Source: Allacma fusca (Eukaryota; Arthropoda; Collembola; Symphypleona; Sminthuridae). From it: a stretch of 64,000 nt of DNA. A program made the position numbers and the translations under genes. Location of the stretch: positions 49,239,402-49,303,401 of the forward strand of contig OX359249.1 of NCBI GenBank assembly GCA_947179485.1. Reading direction: 5' to 3'. The notes beneath the pieces are model-generated. The model was not told the DNA's origin. It did no database searches and saw only the letters and a program-made list of their open reading frames with translations. Below, in pieces: positions 725 to 62,377 of this stretch; within the stretch, counting starts at the first letter, position 1, and every line of letters begins with the position of its first letter.

Positions 725-2022
725 CATACATGGGCACCCTCACGAGGGATTGAGGGATGCCTCGCCCTCTCCCTCGTCCTCGCCCTCACAAACTGCGAGG
801 GTGATGGCGAGTACACGTTGATTTTAGGCGCCCTCATGAACATGAGGGAGAGGACCTATGAATAGGATGTGAACGAAAGAGGGGGAGGCAGAGTACACAT
901 GTAAGCCCTCATGACCTTCTCTTACCTTAATCGTTAAGCGAAAATCATACATATACATATTTTTCTGTAGCAAGACCAACTTCATACCGTCTTAGGTACC
1001 TGGTTTATGGCCCTGTGCAAAAATCCCAGTTTTAATTTTTAAAAGTAAAAGGGCCTCTTGTTTAGGTTAAAATTTCTCATATTAAACTCCAGAAAAAAAT
1101 TTCATTTTAGGATGTCGGGGAGACATGATCATTTATAAACAAGGGCACCTGGGCTTTATATTTGATAAATGCTGTTTTCAGACCCTACTATTGTATATTA
1201 CTGGTATGAGGTTATATAACCTATTTGTGACTAATCTTTATTAACCAAAGACGTAGAAAACAGCTTTGATCAATAATAGTCATTTTCTGAGCTACTGAAT
1301 CGATTATAATGAAGAATTATTGTCATAGACCAACAAAAATGTTTTTTATAACAAAATATAGTAGTTTGACTACTGAATGTTTTCCATTTTCGCGACAATT
1401 AAAATATAAGGAAGTTATGCACTTTGTACCGATGAATTAGAATTTTAAACTTGTTTTTCACGTTATTTTCAGGACAAAATCGAAAGAACATTGTAAAATT
1501 TTCAAGTTTTTTATACTTTTTACAATTATGTCAATCACGAAACCTAGTATGTACCTGTACCCTAATACCTGTGTATAACCTGCACCAATAAAGGGCACTA
1601 TTTTGAATACAGTAGTTTATTTCAACAACAATTTTTTAAAAATTTGTTTTGAACGCTAGGTTGTAGAAAATTTTATAAACTTTGTAAGCTATCCAAAAGT
1701 TCCGTACGTTCAGAACTGGGGGGAATGTCGACACATATTGAAGTTGTCATATTTTAACCAAGTGTCAGCGAAAAAATTATTTGAAGGCAAAGGTATTGTA
1801 GTAAATTGTAGGGGGATTATTTACGTGTAATATAAAATAACGAGGGCCCTCATGAGTGCGAGGGAGAGGGATGTGTTTTAAAAGTAGCCCCTCACGAGGG
1901 CGAGGGCGAGGGCGAGGACAACCCGTAACGTGTTGCTCGATTGATGACGAGGGAGAGTGCGAGCAGGTTATATTCCATCCCTCGCACAATGAGGGAGAGG
2001 GGGAGAAAAACGCCCATCTATG
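725..2022. mobile_element. Non-autonomous hAT-like element with CCCTCG/CGAGGG arrays
   Basis: The left end reads CATACATGGGC and the right end is the inverse of CATAGATGGGC, an 11-bp terminal inverted repeat with one mismatch. The 8 bp CCTACGAG occurs directly before it (717-724) and directly after it (2023-2030). An 8-bp duplication is the hallmark of hAT transposases. Both ends carry arrays rich in CCCTC/GAGGG (about 735-880 and 1845-2010). The middle, about 900 bp, is AT-rich and has no coding capacity; a patch at about 1549-1600 repeats GTACCTG, like the array at 4879-5051. No transposase is present, so it must have been moved by an enzyme from elsewhere. Its right-hand 280 bp has a second, diverged copy at 5380-5665. 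The ends and duplication are seen directly; the superfamily call rests on duplication length. Confidence 0.82.
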
Positions 2023-2090
2023 CCTACGAGTCTGTTTTTTTCAAAAGAGCCATTCCCATAGTGAAGCATTTTTTTGGAATATGTACATAT

Positions 2091-3448
2091 CAGAGCTGCG
2101 TTCAAGTTCAAGTACAACTTGAATAGTTCAAGTGCGTATCAAGTTCAAGTCAAGTCAAGTGCAGACAATTTTATAACGTGAAACTTGAACATCAAGTTCA
2201 AGTGAACTTATAATTTTAACTTGAATTTTCAAGTTCAAGTTCGATCAAGTCCAAGTTAATAATTTATTACTTGATTTCAAAATCAAGTCAAGTTCAAGTA
2301 CACTGAATGGAAGTACTTGAATAAAACTTGAGTATAACTTGAATTTTTGTTAATGAAATCAAGCTTATCTCCTGCATCCAACTAAAAATAATATTGGGCG
2401 TCAATCATTATAATAATGACATCTTTGTTTGTTTTTATTCCACCGACATAAAAATTCTCCTCCACGATGCCCAGTGGTCCACATCGAGAATAATTCTGGT
2501 GTCCTGTTTGCATACTTTGAATAATTAAAAGTTCTGACTTATTATTTTATGAGGATGTTCTTGATTGAGGATCTTGTTCCATTATAAAAATGAAGTTATT
2601 GTTCTCTTCACCTGTTCTGAAGCTAAGAAGAAGTTTAGGAGCAATTTATTATTCCCTTTAAGCAGGGTTGGATTTATGGGGTGGCCCACCCTGGCCCGGC
2701 CAGGTTAAAACATTTAGGGCCAGGGTAAAAAAAAATGTTGACTAAGGCCCTCACATTACATGTGTAAAAGCTCAAACTATTTTGACGGTTGGGCCATGGT
2801 AAAAATTATTTTAATAATCCACACCTGCCTGTAAGAATAAGTTCTGCTAATATTAAGCATCAGATGAACAGCAAACAATCTTATAAATCAATATTGGTTA
2901 AGCAAAATTAACGACGACAAATATTCATGAATATAACTGCTGGTTACACTCACCAGCTTAGTGCAACACTAATGTGAACAGGCCAATAATACGATTGCTA
3001 CCCTCTAAATTGTGGACATTAGTAAATTAGAACACAATGTCTGCAATTATTTGATCAAATATTTTAAACTTTCTAGCAATTTTAAAGTAAAGAATATCAT
3101 CCGCATGCCGTTTAGTTTATCCTAATTACGGCCTAACCATTATCAGCTATAACAATTGTGAACAAAATTTCAAGCATTGTTTATTCATGCACAAAAAAAT
3201 ACTTGAACAATCAAGTTCAAGTGCAAGTTCACGTTCAAGTCAAGTTATGTATGCAACTTGAACGTCAAGTTATTATCAAGTCCAAGTTCTATAAAATGTA
3301 CTTGAAAAGCATGTACTTGAATACTCAAGTTGCTTGAAAAACTTGATTCATCAAGTACAAGTGCGGATACCTTGTTTAGAAATTTTTTCAAGTTCAAGTC
3401 AAGTTCAAGTCAAGTTGTCTAAAATAACTTGACTTGAACGCAGCTCTG
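2091..3448. mobile_element. Non-autonomous hAT-like element with CAAGTT arrays
   Basis: The element starts CAGAGCTGCGTTCAAGT and ends with the inverse of the same sequence. The 8 bp GTACATAT lies on both sides (2083-2090 and 3449-3456), a perfect target duplication. CAGAG-type ends with 8-bp duplications are typical of hAT elements. About 250 bp at each end (2091-2345 and 3200-3448) is almost entirely CAAGTT and AACTTG in both orientations, so the ends could fold on themselves. The internal part has no coding capacity and is itself interrupted by a small second element at 2663-2827. The exact target duplication suggests the insertion is not very old. Confidence 0.88.
2663..2827. mobile_element. 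Small hAT-like MITE nested in the CAAGTT element
   Basis: A 165-bp segment begins CAGGGTTGGATTTAT and ends with the inverse of CAGGTGTGGATTATT (11 of 15 positions agree). The flanks CCTTTAAG (2655-2662) and CCTGTAAG (2828-2835) match at 7 of 8 positions, consistent with an 8-bp duplication that has since changed once. Short GGCCC/GGGCC blocks lie near both ends. It has no coding capacity. It inserted after the surrounding CAAGTT element was in place, or was carried along inside it. Confidence 0.65.
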
Positions 3449-3528
3449 GTACATATAATGTACATACATACAATTTAAATAGTGTGGGTAATATTGAGGC
3501 CAAATATTTTTGGGCTATAACCAACCAA

Positions 3529-3558
3529 TCCCAAATTATTAAAAAAAATAATTTGGGA
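3529..3558. repeat. Perfect 12-bp hairpin
   Basis: TCCCAAATTATT (3529-3540) is followed, after six A residues, by its exact inverse (3547-3558). It lies between two transposon remnants and in no recognised gene. It may be part of a degraded element or a recombination-prone palindrome. Confidence 0.6.
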
Positions 3559-3701
3559 CTAGTTGAGCTGCAGCACGGTTCCAAAGAATGGAGCGTGAAA
3601 GGGCTTTCTGTTTACGGCGAAGGCGCTGCCCTTATATTACGTTGGCAGGGGCCTTCACTCCTCGTCCACTACAGCGAGCAAAGCAATGCTTGCATGCTGG
3701 C

Positions 3702-3869
3702 TAGGCTTCTACTGGGGACAATATTTTTGTCCCGGTGGAAATTCTGGCGCGTCCCGAAATTCTAGGGACAAAAAAAACCTTCCCGATTCAGTCCCGAAAT
3801 TACATGGTAACAAAAATTTTGTCACGAAACTGTCCCGATCCCGGTCCCGTCCCGAAAACCTCGGGACTA
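3702..3869. repeat. GTCCCG/CGGGAC motif array, partial hAT-like element
   Basis: About 170 bp containing many copies of GTCCCG and CGGGAC, plus GGGGACA / TGTCCC near the left side. Read on the minus strand, the right border begins TAGTCCCGAGG, which looks like a hAT terminus; on the left a TAGGCTTCTAC border resembles the TAGAGCTTCC end of the element at 13590. The two borders do not pair well and no matching target duplication was found, so I treat it as a fragment. Confidence 0.5.
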
Positions 3870-3914
3870 TATATGTGTATAAATTACCCGTTTCGGATAT
3901 CCTCCGATTTGACT

Positions 3915-4017
3915 GCCGGCAGATGCAAATATGCACTTTTTCCAAATTTTAAAATGTAGTATTCATGCTTCCCTTGAGCTTAGACTGTTTAAAAAGTGCA
4001 TATTTGCGTCTGCCAGC
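3915..4017. repeat. Short foldback repeat with 27-bp arms
   Basis: The arm at 3915-3941 contains GCAAATATGCACTTTTT. The arm at 3991-4017 is its inverse, with 2 mismatches in 27 bp. The spacer is about 49 bp. The size and layout fit a very small MITE. A target duplication is not clear. Confidence 0.6.
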
Positions 4018-4603
4018 ACTAAAAAAAATTGCATAGTTTCAAAAATGTGCATGTGTTTTTTTTTAAATCGGAAATTTTGATTTTACAATGGGGAAAAAAT
4101 CATGAGTGTAGTTGTTAATGGGACAATATATTTGAGATACCCAACTTTTTAATATTCAAATTGGTAAGGCTGTAATAAATTATTGTATTTTTCGGGTTTT
4201 TTCGGTTTTTTGACCTTCCCATTGGGATTTACGGTAAAAATAAAAGTGTAGATTTTTTTTCATTCAATTACGCATCTGATGGGCCCCATAAAAATATTTT
4301 ATACAATAGTGACCTTCACGGGTGGCCGTTTTCAAAAATACAGACTCCTACTCGATTTAATTTTCAGTTACTAGCCCCTTTTTATAATAATTATTCCGAA
4401 AATACATTCATTTACTAATAAATAAAAATTTCATATTAATCTGTTACTTCATTAACAGTCAAAACGACAAAATATAATTATAATGGACTGGCCTATTCGG
4501 CAACCGTTGAAAAATTTGTTACTACACATGTCTTATATGCAGTCTTTGAAGTGACTGTTTTAAAATGTTTGTTCTAGAAATCGAAAATAGTGAGGATTAG
4601 GTG
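4018..4603. other. No gene recognised
   Basis: AT-rich sequence between transposon remnants, without a supported exon, RNA gene or complete repeat. Confidence 0.5.
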
Positions 4604-4807
4604 GGTATTTTAAGAAAAGTATTGTATTTAAAATACAGTATTTTGTATTTGAGTATTTTAAATTTTCTACCAAGTATTGTATTTTGATTTGTATTTTAGC
4701 AATGTAACCGGGGGTATTTTACGTTGTATTTTGTATTTTCCATATTTTAATTCAGGTATTTTATTTTGTATTTTGGCATCGACGACCAAGTATTTTGCAT
4801 AGCTCTG
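4604..4807. repeat. GTATTTT/TTTTGTATT array with a hAT-like right end
   Basis: About 200 bp built from variants of GTATTTTGTATTTT. The right border, read on the minus strand, begins CAGAGCTATGC, which shares CAGAGCT with the complete element at 2091-3448. A matching left end and duplication were not found, so this is a one-ended fragment or a collapsed element. Confidence 0.5.
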
Positions 4808-4878
4808 GATTTTAGGTTGCACTTTTGCACATCAAGAGAGTAAACCAAAGTTGGATTTTTTTGCTGATTTCGAATAAG

Positions 4879-5051
4879 TGCCCCGGATGGGTACAAAAAT
4901 GTTTATCTGTACCTGAATACACAGTTTCACTTTTCGTGAACCTGTACCTGGTCCCAAACTAAATCGGGAGTACCTATACCTGCACCCGAAATGTACTCAA
5001 AAGGTTTTTGTACCCCGGTATATATTAAGAGTACCTGGGACTATCCGGGCA
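4879..5051. repeat. GTACCTG/GTACC array, short possible transposon
   Basis: The segment begins TGCCCCGGATGGGTAC and ends with the inverse of TGCCCGGATAGTCCC. In between are repeated GTACCTG and GTACC units. Imperfect inverted ends and an array again suggest a small hAT-like element. I do not see a target duplication. A related patch lies at about 1549-1600. Confidence 0.45.
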
Positions 5052-5379
5052 TATTCAAACGATTGGACTAAATTAAAGAATGAAAAATGAAACTATGAGA
5101 CCTATCAGTACTTAAAGTTTAATTTTATCCAAGGTCACTGGGGTCAGAAACAAGACACAAATTCAAAATTATCCACTGTTTCTAAATTAACAATTATTTA
5201 CAGCCTCGCCACATAACAAAATATTTTACTATCGTTTGTTGTGCCTTGGATGGGCTTTTCAGAGTTTCAGAGTGCTACTTAATACACTCCAGGATTGTGG
5301 ACAGGACCAAACAAGACACTAACAATAAGCAAAGGTGCAGCAACTCTGCTTCCAAAGCGAAATTTAACAATGAGAAGGG

Positions 5380-5665
5380 CACATTTTGACGCTGTCATAT
5401 TTTTACCAAGCATCCGTGAACATTTTGTTTGAACGTACAGAGATTGTAGAAAACTGTATGAGCGTTTATTTACGTGTAATATAAAATAAAGAGGGCACTC
5501 ACGAGGGCGAGGGAGAGGGGTGAATTTTAATATTAGCACCTCACGAGAGTGAGGTCGAGAACAATCCGCAACGAGTCGCTTGATTGATGACGAGGGAGAG
5601 TGCTTGTAGACTAAAATCTATCTCTCGCACAAAGAGGTAGAGGGAGACAAAAATGCCCATCTATG
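5380..5665. mobile_element. Right-end fragment of the CCCTCG hAT-like family
   Basis: This is a diverged copy of the right-hand part of the element at 725-2022 (about 1735-2022), in the same orientation. Shared landmarks in order are GTCATATTTT, TTTACGTGTAATATAAAATA, the GAGGG/CACGAGG array, TTGATTGATGACGAGGGAGA and the terminal ATGCCCATCTATG. Similarity fades to the left and no left end was found. Its outer end lies 230 bp upstream of the MRM3 start codon, so it may contribute to that gene's upstream region. Confidence 0.7.
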
Positions 5666-5895
5666 AGACGGAGACGGAGACTATCCACTCTTTCTTTCAA
5701 CTTTTTAGAAGAGAGGATTGCAGTGGGGAAGTTGAAACGTATTGAAAACCCAATAGAGTACGGTATCGCAGAGTAAGACTAATTCATGCGAGCGTAAGTG
5801 CGGCAAAGTTTGAATGCACACAGATGTGGAAGTGAACTAAGAAGAGCGATAGAGATTCACCACAAATCGGAAGATAAAGGGAATGTCTTAATATA
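5666..5895 (+). promoter_or_regulatory. Presumed promoter and 5' leader of MRM3
   Basis: The 230 bp between the transposon end and the MRM3 ATG must hold the leader, and probably the core promoter, unless an upstream non-coding exon exists. I see no clear TATA box. A stop codon (5875-5877) in the reading frame just upstream shows that the ATG at 5896 is the first available start. Position -3 of that ATG is A, a favourable context. Confidence 0.4.
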
Positions 5896-8800: not shown

Positions 8801-11800
8801 ATTGACTATATATATACCAGTCAATAATTTTTCATGCATCACGCGATAGGATATTCAAGAAGAAAAATAATGCACTTCAAATACATATCAGTATTTTAGA
8901 CGGAATTTGTCTCTATATTTTGTGCATAACCTATAAGTAGATACACATAGCGTACATAGCATCAAGAAAATTTCTCATTGCTCAGGTCATGACTTCCAGC
9001 ACGTATGTTGGTCGCCAAGGTCTGTTTCACCTTATAAGCCAGTCCATATTTCACTTTATTTCCTTATCGTCTCATCAAATTCCTAGTCGTACCTTTATCA
9101 TGGGGCCCACCCTCTGATGGAACTCTTTTGGTCGGATTGAGCTAATACCATCATTTTGGAACATGACGAAAGGAAGACCTAGGACGTACTTGGCAAATGT
9201 ATTTTTAAGTCTGGAAGCTTCGCTTTCCTTTACTTTCACCCAATGGCACATCCATGCAACACATTATGATGCCTTCCGACTCACAAATAGGCCTTTCTTT
9301 CATCCTCGTATTTGACTGCTCCGCATCTTGTGGCCATATTTAGAGTCTATAACTTGCACCAGTGGATCTTCCACGACCTTTACATATGAACTCAATGCAC
9401 GTTGAAAATTCTAGGTGGTGGTATTCTGCGTTTTATTTTGGGAGGGGTGTATATATAATCCTTGTGTATGTCCTTGGCTCTCAAATATTACTGTTATTGT
9501 CATGGGTGAGGTTGGGGAAGCTCGAGTAAAGGAATAAAAAGCTGAGAACTTTTGTCTCTCCAAATTCGGTTTTATGATTAGTGTGTCTAGCAGTTCCAAC
9601 ATGTAAAGACTTGTACCTGGCGCAACGGTCTTCCATTTATGGGCATTGTGGATCACAGTATGCAATCAGAATTGGAAGATACGGAGGGTACATACTGTGG
9701 AATCAAGCTGGCCGTAGAGTTGGCTCATCAAGCTCAGGTGAGCTTACTTGAGAGAAATGGCAAAGAGGAAAATGGTTCCAGCCCACACATTTCTGATTGG
9801 GTGGAAGTTCTGGTTACATTTCAGCCGCGCGAAAGTCCCTACATATGTACATGCTGTATAAAATGCAACATGTCATTTACAACGACTTGTAATTTTGTGT
9901 TTAATTATTAGAAGCAGTAAAGCCAGCAATCCATTGTTATTTTAAAGCATCGTGTTCATTAACTGTAAAACATCGAAACAAATTTTTAGTGACGATCTAC
10001 AAACTACAATTCCACAGTTTCATCAATTAAGGCATCAGAAACATCACAGTCATCATCATCATCACTTGAGGTATCATCACAGGACCTTAAGTTTATAATT
10101 ATTGGATCTTGAAGCTGTTCAAAAAAATTATTATCAATTAAATTATCACGCTCCCACATTTGATTTTCGACATCTGTAGCATGTCTCACACAATATTTCC
10201 ACAAGTCAGCGGTGACCAATTCTACAACTTGTTTGGTTATGTCCAGTGTTTTTGAAATACCTCCAAACTTATTTTCTTTGCCGATTTTCATTTTAACATA
10301 ACTCCATACAAGCTATATCGGGTTTAGCTCGCAATGAGCAACAGGGAGCCACAAGATTTTAATGTTTTTCCCACTTTCCTCTGCAATTCGTTCAACTTCA
10401 AATTTGGTGGACACTGGATGCTCTTCGGATAATGCAATTAAATCTCTTTTTGTTGTTTTAGAGTCAGTTGGTATGGATATTTGTCTTCGCTGTAAGTTGT
10501 TTACAATATCTTGTTTCTTCCAATAGTACTTTGGCATAACAGTCTCAGCCACCTAATGGGGTAACAATTACCATTAACTTACTTGTTTACTGAAAAATCT
10601 ACAACTTTAATGAACAAAAGTATCTGTAGTTACTCTTATTCTGTGGTAAGGTGCTTGGTCTAAAACTACTACAGATTTTTCAGGGACGTTGTTGACCAAT
10701 AGTTTGAACCAGTTAATATAGTGTTCACCGTTCATAGATGATCGTCTGGCATAAAAATCAAGTGTTACTCGTCGAATTTCGGCAATAGTGAATGCGTCAC
10801 ATGGTATTGGTGTTTGCTGTGGTAGAAGTACTCTTGGTGGAATATTTTCTGAATTACCACAGTCATTTTTTCTCTTTTTACACTTCGCCACCGTGGCTGG
10901 TGATATTCCTAGTATTTCTGCAGTTTTCTCAAATGGTTTGTCGTACTTTTTCCAGAATTCATGACCTGGATGACCTAAAAGACTGTGAATATCGTGTTTC
11001 ACTTCCTTCAAAAATTCTAAAACTGTACAAATGACATCATCACTGACACGAGTAGTTGATGTATTACGTTTTGTCCTGTTGATTGTACTTGTATTACTTT
11101 CCATTTAATAACAATGAAGTTGTAATTTTATTCACATTAAATTAAAGCCAAGGGAACTACAATTACAGCACGTGTAGAATTTTATACAGCATGTACATAT
11201 CTAGGGACTTTCGCGCGTCTGAAATGAAACCAGAACTTCCACCCAATCAAAAACGTGTGGGCTGGAACAATTTTCCTCTTTGCCATTTCTCTCAAGTAAG
11301 CTCACCTGAGCTTGATGAGCCAACTCTACGGCCAGCTTGATTCCACAGTACTCCTTTCTTTTTACATATAGGAAGGCGAGGGGGATTTCACATTCATTCC
11401 ATCCAAACTTGCAGTATGTTCTCATTCCAATCCTCCCCCAGCTCTGAGGTAATCACCATTTCCCTTCACCTTGTGTTCCAGCGAACTCACACCTTTATTG
11501 AATGCACTTTGTAACACTTTGACATGTAAACCTTTACCAGAATATTGGGTGGGAAAAATTCATTTGGCTGTTGCCTTTGTTGTCTTACCCAGTTGTACAC
11601 AAATCTAAACCGGACCAATGAACAATTTTCACTACTGCATTCGAGGAAATGGGATTGCGTAGGTGTTTAATTAGAAGTATTAGAGGTTTAGGAGAAGCTG
11701 TAGAACTTTAAGTACCTAACTGTAATCGTATTACTTCCCAGACTGAAATATCCTACATTTACCAACGGATAATAACGAAATTGGTTTGATCGTTGGGACT

Positions 11801-12435
11801 ATTGGGAGTGTCTTTTATGTAATACGACTTACTTACTTGTAATATGTTTTATCTTTTTGATCGTGACAGGTTGTTGCGATCCCTGGGACTCAAAAGTTCT
11901 TCGGTCAGGATGTGGGGCTCAATTCTACATGCCAGTCATTACGAACTATCGGCTTAGCTCATTACTCGACAACATCCAATATGATTCCGGCTGTAGTGAC
12001 ACAGGCGAGGATGCAGTCTGGGACGGCAACGCTACCGAAAACTCCAGCGCGAGGGAAGTCGTAAGTGAAAGTAGCCCGACTATCACTGAGAAATCTTCAC
12101 CCTCATTTGCGTTGCTTCTTGCGGACAGTAACGACAGCCAAATAGATGCGAGGGAGCCGCTCCCTATTTTCTCCTATACAGATGCGGATTACCGGACGTT
12201 CAAGAAAATCTATCTTGTGGTTGGAGGCGAAACAGAAGGATTGAGTCATGACATTTTGCAAATAGCCGCCAATGTTAAGACTAGCATTCATTCTCGGATT
12301 CTCCAGCCAACTGTAGCCCGTTTGAGAATTCCACTCCTTCACAATATGGACAGTTTGAATTCTTCAAACGCATTTTCTATTATAGTTTATGAAATGTTGC
12401 GCCAGTTTCAGTCAGGAAAAACTGGAGTGTCCTAA
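5896..12435 (+). CDS. MRM3: Mitochondrial rRNA methyltransferase 3 (SpoU/TrmH family), 4 exons
   Basis: Exons: 5896-6254, 6427-6671, 7667-7825 and 11870-12435 (stop TAA). All splice sites are GT-AG (donors GTAAGT, GTAAGG, GTAAGG) and frames join exactly, giving 442 aa. Residues about 1-119 are a poorly conserved leader, plausibly containing the mitochondrial targeting sequence. Exon 2 encodes the substrate-binding N-terminal domain (ERKFICLEGQRLVEEGFKAG, ending TTPPGIVG). The catalytic SpoU fold shows motif 1 DNVREPGNLGSILRSAAG (about 227-244), motif 2 VVGGETEGLS (about 371-380) and motif 3 MDSLNSSNAFSI (about 414-425). These motifs form the knotted S-adenosylmethionine site. A Ser/Asp-rich linker separates motifs 1 and 2, a variable region in this family too. 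In vertebrates MRM3 2'-O-methylates a guanosine in the peptidyl-transferase A-loop of mitochondrial 16S rRNA. Orthology is inferred from GIF.KP, CCDPW.SKVLR and the motifs. Intron 3 carries an antisense transposon. Confidence 0.93.
6301..6332. repeat. Perfect 13-bp hairpin in MRM3 intron 1
   Basis: ATAACCCCAATGG (6301-6313) is followed by a six-base spacer and its exact inverse (6320-6332). It lies 46 bp after the donor of the 172-bp intron 1. In the transcript it could form a stable stem near the splice donor. It may also be just a tiny repeat. Confidence 0.65.
6672..7666 (+). other. MRM3 intron 2
   Basis: This 995-bp intron begins GTAAGG and ends CTGTAG. I see no other gene or recognisable mobile element in it. 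Confidence 0.85.
7826..9692 (+). other. MRM3 intron 3, part left of the transposon
   Basis: The 4,044-bp intron runs 7826-11869. This left part is AT-rich, with only short open frames and no recognisable exon. The MRM3 frame joins directly from 7825 to 11870, so no coding exon is missing here. Confidence 0.8.
9695..9865 (+). repeat. Left terminal inverted repeat of the Tc1-like element
   Basis: The segment begins CTGTGGAATCAAGCTGG and ends near CTGTATAAAAT. It pairs with 11178-11348 in inverse orientation, with 6 mismatches by hand count. This is long for a mariner-like element, whose repeats are often about 30 bp. Confidence 0.9.
10004..11104 (-). pseudogene. Dead IS630/Tc1-like DDE transposase remnant
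   Basis: Read on the minus strand from ATG at 11104. The first open part (165 codons, to 10607) has a helix-turn-helix around FEKTAEILGISPATVAKC, then jumps from IAEIRRVTLDFYARR to MNGEHYINWF. In intact relatives the stretch between those two holds the first catalytic Asp, so an internal deletion is inferred. VVVLDQAPYH supplies the second Asp. The next part (10552-10313) ends at HCELNPI followed by TAG, exactly where relatives have the third acidic residue (NPIE). The frame then continues LVWSYVKMKIGKENK and runs to an acidic tail ending at 10004. A short gap at about 10553-10606 also has stops; it may hide a tiny intron. Only one of three catalytic residues remains. Confidence 0.82.
11178..11348 (-). 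repeat. Right terminal inverted repeat of the Tc1-like element
   Basis: Inverse partner of 9695-9865. It ends GATTCCACAG immediately before the TA at 11349-11350. Confidence 0.9.
11351..11869 (+). other. MRM3 intron 3, part right of the transposon
   Basis: About 520 bp ending in the acceptor GTGACAG before exon 4. No other feature recognised. Confidence 0.75.
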
Positions 12436-12525
12436 TCGTAAGATTATCTGTAGATTTTTGCTTCGTAACCTTAACAAATGTATTTTGGAATGATTAAAAA
12501 TGAAGACTTCTTGAACGTATTTGAA

Positions 12526-12531
12526 AATAAA
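12526..12531 (+). terminator. Poly(A) signal of MRM3
   Basis: AATAAA lies 91 bp after the stop codon, a usual distance. It is the first canonical signal after exon 4, so cleavage is expected within about 30 bp downstream. Confidence 0.7.
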
Positions 12532-13581: not shown

Positions 13582-13589
13582 GTGTGATG

Positions 13590-14570
13590 TAGAGCTTCCA
13601 ATGTGTTCAACATTTTTGTTCCGTACGAAATTCCGTTCCGTTCCGAAACCTACAAATAATATTGTTCCCGGTTCCGTTCCGGCTGTCGGGACATCGGAAC
13701 ATTTGAACTGACACCGTTCGGAACAAAGTAGTAAAGCATTTTTTCCGTTTCAGGTTGTGTTCCGTTCCGTATTATGCTAGTTTTTCCGTTCCGAACCCGT
13801 TCCGTTCCGAAATATCCCGGAATTTTTTACAACATATGAAATGCGTGTACAAATTACTGGCAACTTAATATATGTACATGATATACTTTTAATATAATTA
13901 TTGAATGCTAGGGAATGCTATTATTTAATTATATAAAATAATATTTAATAATAATTATGCCATATAAAAAGAACTACTTTTCAGCATTATATAATTATTA
14001 TTATTTATTTTTTAGCAATAAATATTTTTAGCGTGTGGACTTCAATGGCCTAACAGTGTTAATTTCCTGCAAGCTTGCTTCATTGCTGCTAATAATTTCG
14101 ATTTCAGAATTTTAATTTCGAGAAAAATCGTCCATGCCCATTTTTATTAAACAAAATTAGTTATTCTGTTGATTTTCATGGAAAACGATACTCGCATTAC
14201 ATATAAGCATTTGCGTAAATTAAATCTGTGTTCATTCAATTTCGCTATTTTGGCAAAAAACTGCTTACAAGCCAGAGCGATAAGAAATGTGTTTCCATTC
14301 TAGTTGAACGATGGCGCGACACTTCAGAAATTGTACCGGGATCGGTTCGGAACGGAACAGAACAATTCCGCTTTCCGATGACATAAATTATATGGGACAT
14401 TTTTCGTACCGATGCTCCGAACCGTCCCGGTCCCAATATTATCGGTACAAGTGCTCATGTTCCGGTTTTGTGCCGATTCAATGACGGAACCAAAAAGAAT
14501 GTTCCGAAATTGTTCCGTTCCGTTTCCGAACACGGAACTTCGGGATTTCGGAAACCCGAAGGAAGCTCTA
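13590..14570. mobile_element. Non-autonomous hAT-like element with CCGTTCC/GGAACGG arrays
   Basis: A 981-bp element that starts TAGAGCTTCC and ends GGAAGCTCTA, an exact 10-bp inverted repeat. GTGTGATG stands on both sides (13582-13589 and 14571-14578), a perfect 8-bp target duplication typical of hAT insertions. The left 230 bp and right 250 bp are filled with GTTCCG, CCGTTCCG and their complements. The central part, about 500 bp, is very AT-rich. No transposase is encoded. The ends share AGAGCT with the element at 2091-3448, but the array motif is different. Confidence 0.88.
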
Positions 14571-14578
14571 GTGTGATG

Positions 14579-37378: not shown

Positions 37379-39480
37379 GTAAATATTGGAATCAACTTCA
37401 TGAATAATAATTTGGCATAATGAGGAAAGCCTTAGTCTGCTTCTATTTATGAAGTTGCTATTCTATAAATATATCTACTTCACTTCGGAGGCTATTTACA
37501 AATACGTGTTTTCTACAGGCCGAGCCACAAAAAGCCCTATCACTGCTCCAGTTAATGTGTCTCTTCCATTCACTCTTGGGAATTCTCGTCTAGAGGTAAA
37601 ACTACTCCTCCTGAAGCATTTCTCAGTGCGGCAGCTCCCTCCTATTGTGTACTTTGTATTAAGACGAGCAAGTACTCGGGAAAGAAAGTCTCAGTTTAGA
37701 TAAAAACAGGTCCATAATAAAATTAAAAGCTCATAGAAAACCTCAAATGTGTTCAGCTTCAAGTCACTACTACTACCACAATGCCCAGGACTCGGCATAG
37801 ACACTTCCCAGATTCATGTTCACTCACATGTGCCTCTTTCAAGTTTCTACTCTTATCTATATATTCATATTTTACCATTCACAACACACACACACCCACA
37901 TGCATATAACATGTCAGCTTCACTTTTCCCTACAAGCCTCGTCGGCTAATTCCTACAAAACTATATTGGTGAGGAGTGTGGGGGGAGGAACGTAAGTGGA
38001 AGTGGATATGCTAAAGGTGATAACTGATAGTGCATAATAAGACGCACGGAACACTCACTTCCCTTTCTTTACTCCAAGGACGATCTTCCGTGTTGTTATC
38101 TCTGGGTTTTTGTAATTTGCCGACCTTTTCTTCCGACAAGAAAAATTCCTACGTTAACAGTCACGGAGCACAGCTGTGTTGTACTTAATGTCCTCATGCA
38201 TGTAGCACATACAACATGTTTTTTTTTGTGGTAGAGATGCCACCCAATCACCTTTAAGCTCACGACAAACTACAGCTCAGGTCTAAGTGCATTGTTCTGT
38301 TTTACCCGTAGTGCAAATGACTTTTATTAGTATTCTTCTGGAGCTGATTTTTTTACTGGGATTTTACAACATGCTAGCATGTGTAGCAACTTTTCATACA
38401 TACATAAATGGGAACACTCAAGTCTTTATAACCCTTCATAAGATCGGGTAAATCTTGAGTGGCTAAAAAATGAAACTGCCGGTTTATCTAATAAGGGGAA
38501 GGACTTTTAAGTAAGTAATTACGTTAAGTACACCATACCTATTTTAGGTAAATGCTTCTGTACTGTAATGCCGTTGTTGGGCCTGCTAAAACCAAAACTG
38601 CATTATTTCCTCCAAGAGTGCAAAGATACAGTCATAATCCTTGAAAGATTCCAAGTATGAAGTAATGTACTAAAGGGTGACTAGCACCGGAAGGATTGAC
38701 GGATATATCTAGATGTAGGCTTGGAGAGAAACTTTAATTAGATTAGTACATACGCTTGCATAAGTAACAATATTTGTCAAATACTGTAAACTGAATGAAC
38801 TCGTTGATCATTTGGGATGAATAAGTTTACAGTCTCGACTCATCGACAGCTTTGAGGAAACTGTGGTAATTAAGAATGATATCTAACGTTGCGTTATGCT
38901 TCTTCAGTTTAGTTTGCTTCGTTGAACATATGTCAAATACCTACAGTATTTGTATTTGGAGTGTCCACATTATATTGTGTTTAGGCATGTGTCTATATAT
39001 CTTGTCCAATCAGCATATGTATAAATAATTATACACACTTGCGTTTGGCAGTGCGTTTTTTGGTGCCAGCAAACAGTTGTGTATTAAAAGAATTTGGAGT
39101 TGCCAGGTACAAGTTGAAGTTGAATGGAATTATTTTTTGCATCATATAGCAGTACAGTAATACATGGTAAGGGTGCCTATATACATATGTAAGTATGTGT
39201 GGTATGAATAAAACGTATCTTTTGAAAATATTGTGAAGAAAAAGCGGAAGTATTTTTTGAAAATATCGTGTTTGTCACCTACATTGAACTTGTTTGTCTT
39301 TTTGCCTCCTTGTTTTGAAACATGAAATAGGTTGCTTCGAGAGTGGATGAATATGTTTTGGGAATATGTTTGAGGGATAATATTTCCCAGGAAACTAGGC
39401 TCTGAACAAGGGAGGAATGTTATTGGAGGACAAGTAGAGAAAAAACACTTGTGGATAATTTGATTATTTGAACATTTCAG
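37379..39480. other. No exon recognised upstream of the TMEM132-family exons
   Basis: Presumed intron or 5' flank. A possible acceptor/donor pair encloses about 37519-37594 but does not provide a start codon with a frame compatible with the next exon. The sequence ends in the acceptor ATTTCAG at 39480. Confidence 0.45.
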
Positions 39481-42400
39481 TGGCAGCCGCAGCTTCAGGA
39501 TTTGAAATCCATTTCGAACAGAAAGATAGTGGTTTCTTCATAAGACCATCCACGTCAAGCAGCCCGTCAAGTTCAGCTGGAGCCAGTAGCTCTTCAATTT
39601 CATCGACCTCATCTGAGGCCGGGGAGATTGGAGACTGGGAAAATGATCGCGGAGAACCCATCACCCTGACAACAGAACATTTTACTGTTCTCCCTTCAAG
39701 TCAACCAGTCTCGATCCGGGTCAACTATGGACCTTTCAGTACGAAACAGACGGTGCCGGTTCGACTCCTCGTTCCCGATCCTTTGGAAAATTCCCTTCCC
39801 AATGGAACGGCCACCAACTCTGAGCCGGAGATGGTCCCACCTTTGGACTTGAGTGCACATATTGTCACACCCACGGTTCCAAAAGATACACCAATTATCC
39901 GTGTCCTGTTCCATGCAGGGCAGACAGCTTTTGGACTGCCAATTCCTCCTCAGAACAGTCCCAGGGGCTCACGGCAGCAGGTGTTTATACTCTTCCATTT
40001 CCCTCAGTTCTTATTATGAACACAATAACTATATGCCCTGTACACATAATCCACATCTCTCTCTCTCAAGTCCTTGGTCCTTTGAACAAGTTCCCCATAT
40101 CCCATACATCTTACCCTTCATTTGTAGCAACCTTCCTTGAAAACGTTAACACATGGACTCTGAATCTGTGTCATTAATAATCTTGGGGTTCCATTGACAG
40201 TGAGCTACACCATAACCATACTTGTGTAATTCCCTATACAAGTACTTTTTTTTGACGTCAGGAGCTATTTACTGTTTGAGCCATGTATGGTGTATTTATG
40301 CGTCTCACTTACTGTGTTAGAAAAATTTTAAAGCAGATTTTATCGACGTAGCTCCAGTTCTCAATGGAAGCCCTTAAATGTTTTCATTTGACTACCTCAA
40401 CCTTTCCCTATCATGATGCTGGTGTGGGATACAATGTCACCAAAACAGTATACATAATCCCCTCTCCCTAAATATATTGCCGTGACCTAGACACAGCAAA
40501 CTTGATAATTTGAGAACTCTGGGACCCAGGAACGAATGAGTTGTGGTACAATGTAATACTCACAAAGGACATGATCCCGACACGAACCACTACAAACGTT
40601 CGTATGTCTGTAGATATCATATACACTCATACGTGTATGTACTTTAAAGGACACCATACCCTGACTTTTTTCACCTTCCAATTTCACATTTTGTACCTAC
40701 CCGTCTGCTAGGAAATGTTTTCCTCGTGAAGATTGTGGAAATCTTGCTATTGTCAATCCTTACCTGTTTAAAGTTTTAACCTGAGTTTAGTAGAAAGGAC
40801 AAATGCAATCATGAAGATAAGATTGAAGTTATGTAGCCGGATGACAGTTGCTTGAGACAAATGGTTTTATATTTATCAGTTTTGCATTCCTAGTACAAAC
40901 TACTATGGTTCAATGAGAATTTTTCTACAACTAAATTGTTCGGAATAATTTATCTTCGAGCAGGTTCACGGATGAAAGGAGAGATAACAACTGTACTTGA
41001 GTCAGGAATAACATGAGTATTGAATTGAGCAAATAAGAAACATGTAATAAATGGAGGGACAAGCTTTACTTGTAGTCATAGGTATAAATTCAAGTATCTG
41101 CATTGGAGGTACAGAGATGTAAAGTAGGAATAATATATTCTTAGAATTGACTTGATCTCTGATCTTTCCTGTGTGTACAAGTGACTGTGTAAAGGACTTT
41201 TCATGTTTGCTTGAGTCCTCAGTAGAAGTCTTTGTTCTTCAGACTGACTAATAAGTGCCCTTTTGTATTATATTGAAGACCGCTGGTGGTGGTGGTGGGA
41301 CACGACGATATCGAACCCGGCTTTGTCTGGTCGCTCAAGCAACAAAAAGTCAGGGAGATATTGTCACCTCAAGCTGCAGCCCTGACGCCCGTGACTCTAC
41401 TTGTCTTGCTGAATTAACTCTTCCAATCCACTGGTGGCCGGAAGCACCTACACCCAATGAAGACAATTCCAATGTTCCCATCAAACCGACGAAGATCCCT
41501 ATTCAGGTGATTATGAGATTGACTCTTCATATAATTATAGATAATCTGCATCACAATATATTATATAAAGTATTAAATCCTAACAATATTTTCCTCACCA
41601 TTTTTTTTTTTAAATCCCTTGGTTATTTTTTCTACACATCTCGAAATCCTTTACCGTGATATTGAAAATGTTCCAATGTTGAGACTTAATTGGAATCGGA
41701 GGTGGGACATCAATGTCTTCTCTTGCCCTGACCGCCTGAGAATTCTTGCCTGGTGCATACGCCTAGTTGAATGGATGTGTTTTTGATTCCATTACTTGCT
41801 CATTTGATTCTATTGCTTGTGCATTTGTGACTGTGAGAATTGTCAAAATCCCTTGCTGAGATCTCTTTCACTCCCGATTCGATCAGCAGGCGCCTTTCCT
41901 TGCACCATACGGAGAATTTTAAGGAGTGGGGTTTTCATCTCTCTCATCTTCTCTTGTTGTATGGACAATGGGTTTATTGTGAGCACATTTCATAAAATTG
42001 CTCCTTTCCTTGTATCTTTTCATCTTGTAAATTAAATACACCTACGTGCAAACACAGACTTGGCATATCTATGTATTTTCTCGAAAGGTACAAACAACAA
42101 TGGAGTGCACTCAAGTAAATAGCCAGACACAAACAAAGTTTTCAAAGTATATTATCCCTGTTTTTAGCAAAGTAATTCGGTATTCAAAAGTTTCATTTCT
42201 TTGATGTTTACTTACTTGTTCATACTAGGGAATGAGAGACCAAGTTGAGAGTCGTGCTTAAACCTGATGAGAGAGTTGCACAACCTTCTTGAAACATTCT
42301 CCCTTTTCAAGTGCACCTTTTCCCATCTGCATTTTGTGAGCCTACCGCAGGTGAAGGGAGAAGAGCACACAGTCGAAAAATCCCTCTCGATTTCCATATA

Positions 42401-49701: not shown

Positions 49702-49729
49702 CAGTCATTTAAAGCTTTTTAAATGACTG
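49702..49729. repeat. Perfect 12-bp palindrome
   Basis: CAGTCATTTAAA, the four bases GCTT, then the exact inverse. No unpaired base besides the four-base loop. No gene context apart from the presumed intron. Confidence 0.7.
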
Positions 49730-50036
49730 TTGCAAAGATCATGTAAAACTAAATGGTACTCACGATACATACATGGATACACGTGACGATCCTCACGGGG
49801 GAAAACATGAGCAGGAGTACATAATCCACCTATTCATAATTAAATTGCTTTATGGTTACAGCAACTTATTGCTGTGTAGGACATTTCCAGTGGATTCTCT
49901 GGCCTTTAGTTGTTGACTTTTGGCCTTCCTCCTCGCTGTCTGATACGATAGTTGTGGATATGCTCTCAAACCCCGCATGGTTCCAGGGAACAGATATACA
50001 CGTCGTAAAAAGGGACGTGCAATCTTCTCCCTACAA

Positions 50037-50066
50037 TCACACACACACATACACACACACACACAC
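50037..50066. repeat. (CA)n microsatellite
   Basis: A CA run of 30 bp with one interruption (CAT). Confidence 0.88.
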
Positions 50067-56000: not shown

Positions 56001-57440
56001 CATCACTGAATTCAAGTTGAAAATGTAGGATTCCCTCGGCCCATCGCTTACTCTCTGGGTGGTACCTTGCTTGACTGGATTTCATCTCTTGCAATAATCA
56101 TTTTTTATTAAGGTGAAGTTCTCTCGTAATCCTAGCTGTGGTTGTTTTCCCAGGTTCTCTAGGCTCTTGGGAACACATGGAGACACATATGGAGGAGCAT
56201 AAATATTTTTAATAAGACTTTCCTCCTGTCTCAACCTACTTTATTGTCTTGGTGAGAAGGTTTGGTTTAAATTTAAGTTTATTTATTTTTTTTGTAAGTG
56301 TATGGTTGGGAGAAAAACACAAGGAGCCAAATAATTATTATGCAATGTAATTTCAAAATGTGTATTAGGTTTCACATCGGCAATTGATAGATACATTTCA
56401 TTAGTTTGTTCTCCCTTTGTTTTGCCTTGTCCTGGTTGTGGTAAGACAAAACTGAAAGGCTGACAAGTTGGGCAGAAGTTTATGAGACTGAGAAGTGTTT
56501 ATTTCCATCTATTAAAGATATTGGTTGGCATCCCCATTATTTCATTAAACAAAGTCATTTGTTGTGTTTCTGACGAGCTCAGTATGCATAAGTCAACGAT
56601 GACAGGGAAATATTGAATGGAGAGTTTCAGCAATTATGAGCCCAGCCCCTAAACAATCAATTTCCCTGATAAAACTTCGTCATGTAAAAGATACTCCACA
56701 CACACACTGCCTTAGTTCCTGGCAGGGCTGCTTTTCTGCACTGTATAATTTATACTCAGTAGCTCGGGGGTCTCATGCAAGACCTGGTATAGTACCGGGT
56801 GAGTAAGGGAATGGTATACCCATCTGTGTACTTTCTGAGGGGCAGAGCGTCTGTATAGTGTTACGTTGACAGACAGGCTGGTTGTCCAATGGCTCCACTT
56901 AAGTTGGACGGAATGCTGGTGATTTGTGCTAAGTTGTTTCCCCATTATCTTCATAGACGAAGGGCTAATTTTTTTAAAAATTGTTATGGTTTCCACTTGT
57001 CACTCCGACTTTTATGAGACGGAGTTTTTTTTATTTACCATTACTTTTTTTCAAATTAGGGACATGTTGGGAACTCGAGGCATTCCAACGTCCGTATGTA
57101 CGGCTAGAGTCTCCTGCATGTTTGGTGGTCATTAGAGTCGGGCCCACATGAGCCAGGCTGCATGATCACAGTACGTTCTCCCAGTTGTGTGTTATTTTGT
57201 TTTAGGGATCTATTTCTCCTTTCCGTGTAACACTTTCCAGAACTTTCACCCTTTTCATTTAGCACGGAGTTTTCTCAAATATTTCCGTCATCTCCCGGCC
57301 TTGCTGTATCGAACTGGTCCCCAAAACCTGGAAACTATGAAAACTCAACAGAAAAAATCACTCCGGACTAAACTTACTGTGGCTGAGAAGATTATGTGGT
57401 AGTACAGATAAAGCTCTCATATGTACTTCCTCACACTCTG

Positions 57441-57463
57441 CACACACACACACACACACACAC
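57441..57463. repeat. (CA)n microsatellite
   Basis: A 23-bp CA run. Confidence 0.9.
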
Positions 57464-58324
57464 TCCACATTCTAATATTTCCTCTTGGTTTTTTGTCTTT
57501 GCGTGATTTTTGACTTGATGGTTATTTGTGAACATTATGACCACTGCCACTTTCCTCCAAATGTGAGCTCTCACAAATGTAAATAACAATGACGGTAAGG
57601 GCGGAATTGTGTGCGCAGTGTCAGGAGAAGTAGTGGAGTTGTAAACAAAGTCCGGTCCCGTTCTCTTTGATACAGTCCAAGTGCTGAGGAGCGGAAAGCT
57701 TTCCGCTACCTTGATCTGTCCGGTTAGTAGTATTAGACGTAACTTGGTATCATTACCCTGACAAAATAATTTATGGGAAGTGAAGCCTGGGCTAGGTTTT
57801 ATCCCCATTGTTTATTACTCCCTCCAAATCAGTCCAAGGAGATTGTTATTGTAAAGTCAAAACTTGCTTAGGCAGATGACTTACGACTCCCAACTAAGAC
57901 CTGTACATATTTTGGAAAATGATTTGAGATTTCTCGCATGCTACTCCAAATTCGAGGTTCCTTCACGATTACACATATTTTTTTCTTTTTAAATAGCAAT
58001 ATTCCTTCGTATGCTTTCCTTCATGGTATGAAGCTCTCCGCTCATGCGATCCCACTCACAAGTACGTGCAACATAACCCAATGGCTTTTTATAAAGTATC
58101 TAGACATAAGTAATACATATAGTCAAGTATGTGAGGGCAAGCATCATCATACAGGGGTATACTCTTGGAACCCCGTACGTGCACTTGCATTCTTCATGCC
58201 TCTAAGTGTAGACAAATTGTTCCTTCATATAAGCTTGGGGTGTTTACCTTAGCTGTGTAGGGAGTGGTATGTACGTATCCAAGTATAGGAATGAGAACGG
58301 AAGGAAATTCCACGAGAGTTGGTC

Positions 58325-58351
58325 GTGTGTGTGTGTGTGTGTGTGTGTGTG
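58325..58351. repeat. (GT)n microsatellite
   Basis: A 27-bp GT run. An imperfect CA-rich stretch follows at about 58884-58925. Confidence 0.9.
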
Positions 58352-61300
58352 AGCTGCACCGTTTCTTCCAGCCGTAATGCCATGAGTAAAGTCTAGCGTA
58401 CATTGTGCGTTACTAGAGCGTCTACAAATTTCCGTGGAAAGTTTCGGAGAGTAGTAGGAGTAGTATCCATCATTTAGTCCATTCGGTCGTTCCGTTTAGT
58501 CATTTCAGTCAGGCACACTGGCGTATATAAAATCATGATCAGAACAAGTAAACATGCTATGAATTCCAATAAAAATGATGGCAGAATACCAAAGTAGAAA
58601 CCAAAAGTGAGTTGACTTTTTCCTTATTCATGTGGCTACTGCTCCTCTTCCATTCTCCTATTCTTCATTCCTTTCAGTAACTTTTTTTACAACTCTTTAC
58701 TTTCTCCTATCATGGAGGGAAAGTGAGTGAGAAATTTATCTCTCTGTATTTACACCATTCCCTGTATCCCTAGCCTTTCTTAATCTCTTGGAATCCAGGC
58801 TTAGTCTCGCCATCAGTTGAAATTTTAATTTGCTCTGAAACATTCAAGCGATTTTTAACGTGTACAGGACGTGGAGATACATACTCACAAACACACAGAC
58901 GAACACACACACACACAAACACACATAAAACATTATTAACTCTTACTATGAAGCAGGGGCTATAAAGCATAGCATTCAATTTACTCTTTCCAGAATGTTT
59001 TCGACAGAAAAAGAAAGAGAGAAAATTTATGTTTTGCAAATTACTTTGTATAGGTATATCCATACCCAGTACCTTGATTGAAAATACAAGGTCGTCCAAA
59101 ATTACTTCCAGAAAGCCAAGGAAAATTACTTCGTCGGGGTGCTGAAGGAGAGTGGTCTCAATGTGAATGCTTGTACTTGAGTGGAATTATAACCCTATAT
59201 TTGCATATAGTGGGGGTGGGGGGAGGGATAGATATGTACATACACACTCATGTAATGTTAATGCCAAGTTGTGCCATAAATAATGTAAACTTCTGGGACT
59301 CTCTTATCAGGGCCTGTATGTAGGTGTGGAGAAGGGAGAGAGGAATCAGAGGAAAATCAAATCCACAGAGGTAGGAAAACAAAATAAAGTGCAGTTGTGT
59401 GGAAAAGTACGAAAAAAAATTTCATGCCTGACAGTTGATTTTGCGTGCTATTCTCTACCTCTCGTGAGTTTATTCCAATGCGAGTGAAGTATATACATGG
59501 TAGGAGCTACCACGTAAATGTCTTTAAGGCTGAGGAAAAGGCAAAATAACTTTGCCCCCCACATGTCCCTCCGTCACTTTCCTCACCTGAGAATGTGTGT
59601 ACATATGCAATTTGGGTTACTCTGTTTGAATAGATGAAAGGAGATCTGGTAGGCATGCAGGAGCAAATGGAGAAAGGAAATGGGCAAATGTAAACAAATG
59701 ATAAAAATATTTTTTGTCAGCTTTTCCCCTCTCGCTCTCAGACTTTTTCCTTTGCATTTCAAACACATGGTCGGGTAAGTATTTTCCTCACCATTGGGGC
59801 CCCATGCTTGATTATATCCAACCAAGGTCAGTATCTACGTAACTTTCCTGTCTACCCCAAGTTATAGTAACGATCGAGGAGAAAATGCCTCCAGAAAGAA
59901 TGGACGTCTGAGCTGGAGAGAGTCACTCTATAACATGTGTTCCAGAAATGCTACTACTTCAATACAATATAGGGAATATAATAATAATTATACTCCGACT
60001 ACACTCCATCCTCCGGGGGTTTCTTGGTTTTTATATATTTGGGAAACTACGTGGGAATGTAGGAGTTCACATCATACGGGGATATTTTTATCGAATTTAT
60101 ACGGACAAATTCCCTTGTCCTAGAAATAAGCAAAGAGTATACATACTCCAATGAATTTCTAAAATGCATTCTTTGTCAGGCCTAAAGAACGGCTTTGGTA
60201 AGAAGTTTTGGTGTGTACAAAACTCTTCAGGGGGGAAATTTAACTAAAGGAAATTCACATATATACATAATGCCGTAAACTTATTTGTGCTTTATGCACC
60301 ATGCACCCCACCAAATAGCATTGAATACTTAAAGTACCGGGGAAAAAATGTAGTCTTTGCTCGCTACAAGAAAGTGTGGTGCTCTGTGAAACTTTCCAAT
60401 GAGAAACATCAACAAAGGTTTTAACGGATTCTCACAATTTCTTCCCTCTTTCTCGTCGGTAACAGTATATAATTATGTAGTTATGCTCGGATACATAAAA
60501 ATACATGATTGGTAGTGCTTCTCAACAGAAGTGGTCTGCAGTACACGATTCCCTCGTTCGGTTTATCATAGATGTAGTAATGGTAGGTTGTTCGGAGTCC
60601 TTGTATAAACGATTATTACATTCATTATGAAAGGGCTGTATCTCTACAGAATTCCTACAACTTCATCAATAGCTGGATTTGGAATGTCAAGTATTTTTTA
60701 AAAGTTTAGATAAAAGTTGAAATATTTCCCCGTGCTTTTGTGTATGTCCAATCCTGTAGTTTGTATATCCCTGGATAATTGTGTAGTACTCTAAAAAAAA
60801 TCCTGTTTTGCTTTCCCCTTTCGTAAGCAGGTTAAGAATTACGTCGAAGCTCGGATCGGAAATATGAAATAGTGTTGCTCTAGCGCATACCCCAGGGCTA
60901 CTGAAACATCTTTTGATTTTGTATCCTTTTGAAGTATCTATCATAAGAAGTTAGATGGGATTGCATTTATTTGTGTGCTTTGTAATACTAACTGTCAGGG
61001 ATTCTTCATGCATGCTTTTACCCTCTTTTCATTCTGAGCGAAACCCAAAGTGAGTCAATTCCAAAAAAAAAAATGCGGAGACGGAGGTTTTGTATGTGGC
61101 CGCTCCGAAGATAGGAAACGAGTATTGACTAAACCAATGTAGGTTACAGACTCCGGTTCTCTAGTCCGAGAGTACGTGCATTTATCAGGTTTGCCATGAT
61201 CAAACCATGTCTGTGAGGAAGCTTGAGAAGTAAGCAGAAAATTTAATTATTAAGGTTGAAGCCAAATCTATTATTTGCTAATGTATTTATACTTTGCATT

Positions 61301-61507
61301 TGGAGGCTTAAAAATTCTAAAAAAGTTATACAAAGATAATTACCTATAGTAAAAATAAAATGTTTCCCTCGAAAAGGAAATCAAACTTTTACTATGTCCC
61401 ATGAGTCATTACTTCCGAGGGATTTCTGAAGAAATTAGAATGAAAAGTAATTCCTTCGGATATTTTGGGTACTATTTGAGAATTGGTAGCATTTATTTTT
61501 AAGGAAG

Positions 61508-62377
61508 TAGTGGTCCCGATCTTTCAATTCTGAATCAAAAAAACTCGATTCGATTCAATTCAATTCAATTCTGATTCATAATTTTTCGATTCAATTCAAA
61601 AGATGAATTGAATCATTTCATTCAATTCACTTCATGAATGAAATCACACGAAATGCCTTGAATCGCGATTCAAACGTGCATCGTATTTGTTTGCATATCC
61701 CGCTAAAAAATGCAGCTAGAAACGCACCACATTAAAAAACTCGCACGTGTTTCTAAGACACTTTTGTTGGAAAAACGGTTAGTCAATTATTTCGTAAACA
61801 ATAATTTTTATATGTTAATTACATCATTTATTATTAATTATTATTACAACATTTACTAACGGTGGAATTTAGGTCATAATGGGACAATTAATTAGCAGGC
61901 TATGCAACTCGAATTTTGCTAATGTTAAAGTCAACTCTCGGTAAAAGAGAAGCTCATGGCACCGGCAAAATTTGTCCCTTAAAACATTACCCCTTATAAG
62001 CAGTGTTATATGTACATTGTGTAAATGGGAATCGGGACTGTAAATCCCAATCCCTTACATCAAAAAATCACTTGTAAGGGTATCCCTTATATAGCGAAGG
62101 TCACTGTAATGACAATTTTATTGATAGTGCAACTGACTTATATTCTTCCGCTGTTTTATGTAGTCGTTATAAAATCCTTCAATAAAATGTTTATGTTACC
62201 ACCTTTTACTGTCTGAATGATTTGAATCATCATTCGATTCAATTCAGCACGCAGAAATGAATCAAATGGAATCCTGTGAATCGTGAATTGAATCGAATCA
62301 TTGTATGTCATTCAATTCATAAGCTGAATTGAATCAAAACGAAAATTTTGAATTGAATTGAAAGATTGGGACCACTA
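61508..62377. mobile_element. Non-autonomous hAT-like element with GAATTGAATC arrays
   Basis: An 870-bp element. It begins TAGTGGTCCC, with the inverted repeat extending about 23 bp with one mismatch to the TTTCAATTC motif. TAAGGAAG occurs on both sides (61500-61507 and 62378-62385), a perfect 8-bp target duplication. The terminal 150-180 bp on each side are made of TTCAATTC, GATTCAATT and their complements. The core is AT-rich with no coding capacity. It lies in the presumed long intron of the TMEM132-family gene. Same architecture as the elements at 725, 2091 and 13590, but a different motif and terminus. Confidence 0.88.

Follow-up and report, generated by a model that had tools for sequence, protein, structure and literature searches.

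A 64,000-bp stretch of the genome of the collembolan Allacma fusca (GenBank assembly GCA_947179485.1, contig OX359249.1, positions 49,239,402 to 49,303,401; the whole stretch is here called the window) contains four transposable elements, E1 to E4, that share one layout, each with its own short motif packed into both ends. These are very probably nonautonomous members of the hAT superfamily, moved in trans by the transposases of elements with the same ends, and their arrays are predicted binding sites for the BED zinc fingers of those transposases. This reading is built on what was directly established: the borders, duplications, genome copies and arrays of the elements, one coding partner, the 12 motifs that adjoin transposase genes, and the constraint seen at E4 motif sites. 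A preliminary description of this DNA had proposed hAT-type elements of common layout with one motif per family, and the arrays and target site duplications (TSDs) of E1 to E4, together with the motifs found beside transposase genes, bear it out.

Four elements with one layout

The preliminary description had placed in the window four elements with perfect 8-bp TSDs and short terminal inverted repeats (TIRs). A blind scan of the 64 kb, which ignored the arrays and looked for exact 8-bp direct repeats, 120 to 4000 bp apart, around an inverted repeat, returned all four at those borders among its 8 matches; 20 Markov-simulated control sequences gave 0 to 2 matches apiece, with a top score of 8. 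The scores of E2 (2091..3448, plus strand; TSD GTACATAT; TIR CAGAGCTGCGTTCAAGT, 17/17; score 17), E3 (13590..14570, plus strand; TSD GTGTGATG; TIR TAGAGCTTCC, 10/10; score 10) and E4 (61508..62377, plus strand; TSD TAAGGAAG; TIR TAGTGGTCCC[G/A]ATCTTTCAATTC, 23 bp with 1 mismatch; score 20) exceed every simulated score. E1 (725..2022, plus strand; TSD CCTACGAG; TIR CATA[C/G]ATGGGC, 10/11 paired) scored 8 and only ties the simulated best, so its identification rests on its arrays and genome copies. Of the remaining four matches, one lies within E2's own array, one within an inverted repeat at 9693-11350, and two are weak (scores 8 and 7).

A short motif repeated below both ends is a hAT-type trait, and it is present in all four elements: CCCTC(G) in E1, CAAGT in E2, CCGTTCC in E3 and GATTCAATT in E4. 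Counted on both strands in the left 270 bp, the middle and the right 270 bp, CCCTC occurs 11/0/12 times in E1, CAAGT 23/0/23 times in E2, GTTCC 13/0/8 times in E3 and ATTCA 14/0/14 times in E4. The totals of 23, 46, 21 and 28 stand against shuffle maxima of 8, 11, 6 and 17, respectively. The packing in both orientations that had been described earlier is therefore confined to the outer 270 bp of each element, with zero motifs in the middles.

The TIRs of hAT elements are short and start with YARNG, and the TSD preference nTnnnnAn is typical of the hAT Ac group. E2 (CAGAG), E3 (TAGAG) and E4 (TAGTG) fit the YARNG start; E1 does not. T at TSD position 2 and A at position 7 were found in 6/6 and 6/6 of the E2 duplications and in 20/26 and 17/26 of those of E4, and T at position 2 in 7/9 of those of E3.

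As the preliminary description had it, none of the four elements appears to have coding capacity. Searching with tblastn at E 0.01, with 29 sampled dimerisation domains and two frames of the coding element described below (L069) as queries, we found no transposase remnants in E1 to E4; the sole match in the window covers 19 residues at 514-570 (E 0.008). By blastn, E4 retains a 42-bp stretch (379-420) resembling the last exon of L069. Pfam searches of 16 long open reading frames in the window found no transposase, and an Rfam scan of the window at the gathering threshold returned nothing.

Genome copies and constraint on motif sites

The 392.7-Mb assembly that contains the window (91 contigs) was searched for further copies; scoring was applied to the best candidates, and the results do not describe decay among the rest. 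E1 has 652 candidates, and 39 of the best 40 are full length while one reaches 1292/1298, at 90-100% identity. For E3 (580 candidates), 38 of the best 40 are full length and two reach 980/981, at 95-100% identity, and two further genome copies are 100% identical to that in the window. For E4 (716 candidates), 33/40 scored copies are full length. The 23-bp end of E4 has 338 exact genome matches and the 17-bp end of E2, for which only ends were counted, has 801; reversed-pattern controls gave 0 for both, and the E2 end pattern had 0 matches in viral contigs. Perfect 8-bp TSDs flank 27/30 E1 and 26/30 E4 copies (for each, the 30 top loci, which include the window copy), 9/10 other best-scoring copies of E3, and 6/10 E2 end pairs chosen from 100 of the 801 ends. 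E1, E3 and E4 therefore show many copies with uniform borders, a trait like that of miniature inverted-repeat transposable elements. Discordant borders, or arrays that were ordinary satellites, had been named at the outset as grounds for abandoning the reading; the copies examined share borders and duplications and are not satellites.

Variation among copies points to constraint on the E4 motif. Across 28 other E4 copies and the window's (one of the 30 fetched loci, L048, is not full length and was excluded), the variant fraction was 0.0084 at motif sites, 0.0427 at other end sites and 0.0572 in the interior, so that motif sites are about five times less variable than their neighbours. Shifting the motif mask reached the observed difference in 0/330 cases, and the same held without CpG sites. 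The same outcome came from an earlier version of the test that took the window copy as its reference (E4, p 0.0002; E1, p 0.11).

A coding partner, and array motifs beside transposase genes

One E4 end sits 3 kb upstream of a hAT dimerisation domain, at a locus that we call L069. The element there (L069:232-3708; 3,477 bp) has the TSD GTCGAGAC on both sides, the E4 TIR, and GATTCA arrays in both ends. It encodes a split transposase gene with matches to Dimer_Tnp_hAT (E 2.7e-13) and, once two exon halves are joined over a presumed intron, to zf-BED (E 9.3e-9). For a 459-residue frame of L069, Pfam gave nothing above cut-off, and searches of solved structures yielded only weak, irrelevant matches. 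The first 304 bases of E4 are 84% identical to this element and bases 638-870 are 87% identical; because both ends match, E4 looks, from these alignments, like an internally deleted relative of the L069 element. The preliminary description had proposed to look for an autonomous partner for each motif family; one of autonomous type was found for E4, whose ends and array L069 shares, and none for E1, E2 and E3.

We read the flanks of hAT transposase genes at 29 loci, a non-random sample of 150 scored dimerisation-domain hits among ~860 candidates (8 from the first search, L069, 12 mainly long frames and 8 mainly L069-like last exons). Both ends were read for L069 and the 3' side for the other 28; borders and duplications were examined for L069 alone. 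An array was called where a 250-bp window held one 6-mer at least 6 times, a count that 280 shuffled stretches never matched (never above 5). By this criterion 19 loci have a 3' array, and L080, called by eye, brings the total to 20/29, with 12 motifs (10 if close variants are merged). The motifs are CGGATA (L074, L075, L089, L090), CGGATC mixed with CGGATA (L078), CGGTTC (L081), AACCGT (L076 and L080), GATTCAA (L069), CGATTC (L088), AACTGAAAC (L085), GGACCAG (L086, L087), GAGTACG (L083), TAGAATAG (L003, L004, L006), GTAGTGG (L005) and GAAGGA (L007, L008). In a matrix of arrays against motifs, the most abundant motif in each array is its own, with two exceptions: L078 (CGGATA 9, CGGATC 8) and L080, where the window scored fell on a nested GTATTTT element. 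That element lies directly outside the array-bearing 3' end of the transposase gene (C1:41976885-41977860). Together with CCCTCG, CAAGTT, CCGTTCC, TATCGT, GTCCCG, GTATTTT and a weak GTACCTG from the window itself, there are up to 19 motif families (17 with close variants merged).

The BED helix region was read in two families, as KGKGSTGNMGYHLQKNH in L091, upstream of the CGGATA locus L074, and as KEYSARVSTLKNHLDRSH in the GATTCA element L069; the two differ, although a single pair is too small a sample to show change in step with the motif. No BED finger of the L081 element was seen by eye in L092, and a zf-BED search gave 35 matches, none of them by eye adjoining the sampled array-bearing transposases. 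Separately, three hAT dimerisation hits of equal score lie exactly 9,813 bp apart (C8:28181777, 28191590 and 28201403), in the manner of a tandem duplication.

Motif similarity and transposase descent

We compared the motifs with a tree of the dimerisation domains (29 rows, 80 columns; an earlier tree had 21 rows), in which 7/24 inner branches are well supported and long-branch warnings apply. Carriers of CGGATA, CGGATC and CGGTTC form one clade (100/100), those of AACCGT form another (100/99), and those of TAGAATAG and GTAGTGG group with the array-less L072 (100/99). Among 16 dereplicated array-bearing loci, protein distance correlates with array 5-mer distance (Mantel r 0.30, p 0.006), and nine variants of the test gave r 0.24-0.43 and p 0.0025-0.037. 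The proposal that transposases and motifs have diversified together thus stands in part: motif similarity tracks transposase similarity over these loci, but the coupling is not strict. In its strong form, one clade per motif, it fails, since L085 and L088 have different motifs although their dimerisation domains show 76% identity, and GATTCA-type motifs are common to L069 and L088 at 69%.

Some arrays are mixed. In addition to L078, a case comes from L070:38-3497, where three hAT-like elements are nested. Each has an 8-bp duplication and an array motif of its own, and the innermost is the least certain. The outermost is a long E2 copy with the duplication TGTTTAAT. Within it lies a complete TATCGT element (L070:652-2868; TSD ATGTTTAA; TIR 14/14; ATCGT 7/1/7 in left, middle and right), and within that the third element (L070:1464-2469; duplication CTGGTGAG; ends 9/10). 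The ends of this third element hold TCAAGT 15, TCATGT 10 and TCGGGT 7 times, each motif in both ends, against shuffle maxima of 3, 4 and 2; neither TCATGT nor TCGGGT occurs in the outer 300 bp of the E2 ends. Such a mixed array could be an intermediate in a motif switch, or a composite site. L070 was also considered as the autonomous E2, as it has the longest E2 end pair among the matches listed, and was rejected, because the locus proved to be an E2 copy interrupted by two nested elements, in which no transposase frame was recognised.

Proposed mechanism and alternative explanations

We infer that the transposase binds the arrays, that the nonautonomous families are mobilised in trans, and that motifs switch by a particular route, as follows. 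The transposase of a longer element with the same ends would move each nonautonomous family, with the arrays in the outer ~150-250 bp serving as sites for its BED zinc finger, so that many subunits could be loaded on both ends. The TIRs would then be cut and the element pasted into its target, leaving the 8-bp duplication. Between families, the array motif would change wholesale, roughly in step with transposase descent, while layout and chemistry were kept, and a switch may pass through a stage with two or three variants, as the mixed arrays suggest.

Several observations weigh against this. The genome searches turned up no coding partner for E1, E2 or E3; for E2, the 100 ends listed out of 801 all lie within the first 32 Mb of C1, and by eye none of them is near one of the 150 scored transposase hits. 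At 9/29 loci (L001, L002, L071, L072, L073, L077, L079, L082, L084) the stretch read holds no array. Constraint on the E1 motif runs in the same direction as in E4 and is not significant, with 57/432 shifts reaching the difference (95/432 without CpG). The TSDs of E3 carry A at position 7 in 3/9 cases. A Mantel correlation is expected without any functional coupling, because related elements inherit common arrays. Finally, a study of Hermes reports that mutating the putative left-end sites that lie past the first 50 bp left ~70% of the activity (PMC10368747), so some subterminal repeats may be dispensable. Three of the array-less loci, L073, L077 and L079, have related dimerisation domains followed by NLS.EITL.RN (by eye) and no array downstream; these could be domesticated genes or older elements.

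E1 is the element whose assignment is most readily questioned. Its end, CATA[C/G], departs from YARNG at position 3 and its TSD preference is weak (T at position 2 in 11/27, A at position 7 in 13/27), as might be expected of another superfamily with 8-bp duplications. We consider this unlikely, however, as the right end of E1, CATAGATGGGCGTTT, is by eye close to the end CAGTGATGGGCGTTT that adjoins the hAT transposase L003.

It is also quite improbable that the arrays reflect descent and tandem growth only, as cryptic simple repeats with no binding role whose differences between families are drift. Such an origin would account for the motifs that related elements have in common, for the parts of the E2 and E4 arrays that are called as tandem repeats, for the regular longer repeat inside the L007 array, and for the nonsignificant E1 result. 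It does not readily account for irregularly spaced motifs in both orientations, found in both ends and absent from the middle, nor for the low variability of E4 motif sites, and two of the motif classes resemble measured hAT binding motifs. There is similarly little chance that one or a few promiscuous transposases mobilise all families, with the motif read by a host factor or by nothing: the missing E1 to E3 partners and the CAGAG start common to the E2, GTATTTT, L007 and L008 ends (the last three by eye) would fit, but E4 shares its end and array with a coding partner, and 12 different motifs adjoin different transposase genes.

A further step can be suggested, more tentatively and at somewhat less than even chances: hATs may have been re-targeted repeatedly within this one genome, with dozens of sites in both ends replaced each time by way of mixed arrays, and mainly the bases flanking CGG changing within the CGG group. 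If true, the flank changes at the CGG core would form a readable recognition code for BED fingers.

Other features of the window

Four further arrays had been described as fragments of the same kind of element. This is supported for TATCGT (420..523), probably the right end of an element running off the window start (TIR GCCAATGCCTA at 513-523), as window 21-524 is homologous to the full TATCGT element at L070:652-2868. It is also supported for GTATTTT (4604..4807), a fragment with the hAT-like right end CAGAGCTATGCAAAATAC that terminates, by eye, in CAGAGCTATG at 4807; L080 holds a similar array and end, again by eye. For the GTCCCG array fragment (3700..3868; GTCCC 6 forward, 3 reverse) no pair of ends was detected, and the GTACCTG array (4885..5052), possibly a short element, is weak and has no clear TSD. 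GTACC occurs 5 times forward and once in reverse in 4850-5070, and the GTACCTG 7-mer 16 times across the window against 4.8 expected, mostly outside its array.

Absent from the preliminary description is the right part of a second E1-family copy (5466..5665, plus strand), with its right end at 5665 and with 86% and 81% identity to 1817-1910 and 1901-2022, respectively. The element at 9693-11350 has 181-bp inverted ends that are 95% complementary and start TACTGTGGAATC; its minus-strand frame of 165 aa has no Pfam match and by eye resembles part of a DDE transposase. Likely host gene exons lie at 11776-12432 (SpoU methylase family, E 2.1e-11) and at 39459-40016 (a weak match to the TMEM132 N-terminus that falls short of the curated cut-off).

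Comparison with known hAT systems

E4 compares with Herves of Anopheles gambiae, whose transposase binds CGATTCAT, or CG/AATTCAT, repeated in both ends (PMC3143072); the core (C)GATTCA also occurs in the E4, L069 and L088 arrays. The arrays here are dense (ATTCA 28 times in E4), have sister families with other motifs, and are known from sequence, in contrast to Herves. Maize Ac/Ds likewise has short TIRs, 8-bp TSDs, AAACGG repeats in 200-bp subterminal regions and many nonautonomous derivatives (PMC3260210), all features with counterparts here. Ac transposase binds AAACGG (PMC3260210), in agreement with the statement in the preliminary description that hAT transposases bind short subterminal repeats. 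That paper covers one family and one motif, whereas here there are many motifs in one genome.

Most hATs are reported to carry subterminal repeats. In Hermes, the BED domains recognise AAGT repeats close to the left end, and AAGT motifs are also present in the ends of Tol2 (PMC10368747). These are comparable to the CAAGT arrays of E2, although the arrays here are denser and the comparison is one of array sequence. The CGG group recalls the hAT-derived CGG-binding proteins, which have BED and Hermes domains and many specificities, often CGG, with at least 8 distinct ones in coelacanth, and the motifs of tested hATs match their own subterminal regions (PMC8097297). The CGGATA, CGGATC, CGGTTC and CGGAAC arrays here have the same core. 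Those proteins are mostly domesticated host proteins across species, whereas here the motifs form transposon arrays within one genome.

A literature search, limited to titles and abstract openings and with subscription papers outside its reach, returned no study in which a panel of hAT motif arrays from a single genome is matched to transposase clades, which is not proof of absence. It is an open question in the field by what path a transposase can acquire a new binding site if dozens of copies of that site have to change along with it, and one genome here offers a natural panel for it. With up to 19 motif families and near-identical copies in one assembly, a BED recognition code and the order of events become testable without host differences, and the arrays alone could help to name transposon families. 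That hAT motifs differ between elements is already known, and the Herves authors state that the sequences bound by hAT transposases in their own elements differ (PMC3143072); what is added here are the E1 to E4 families, the panel of motifs from one genome, the constraint on motif sites and the mixed arrays.

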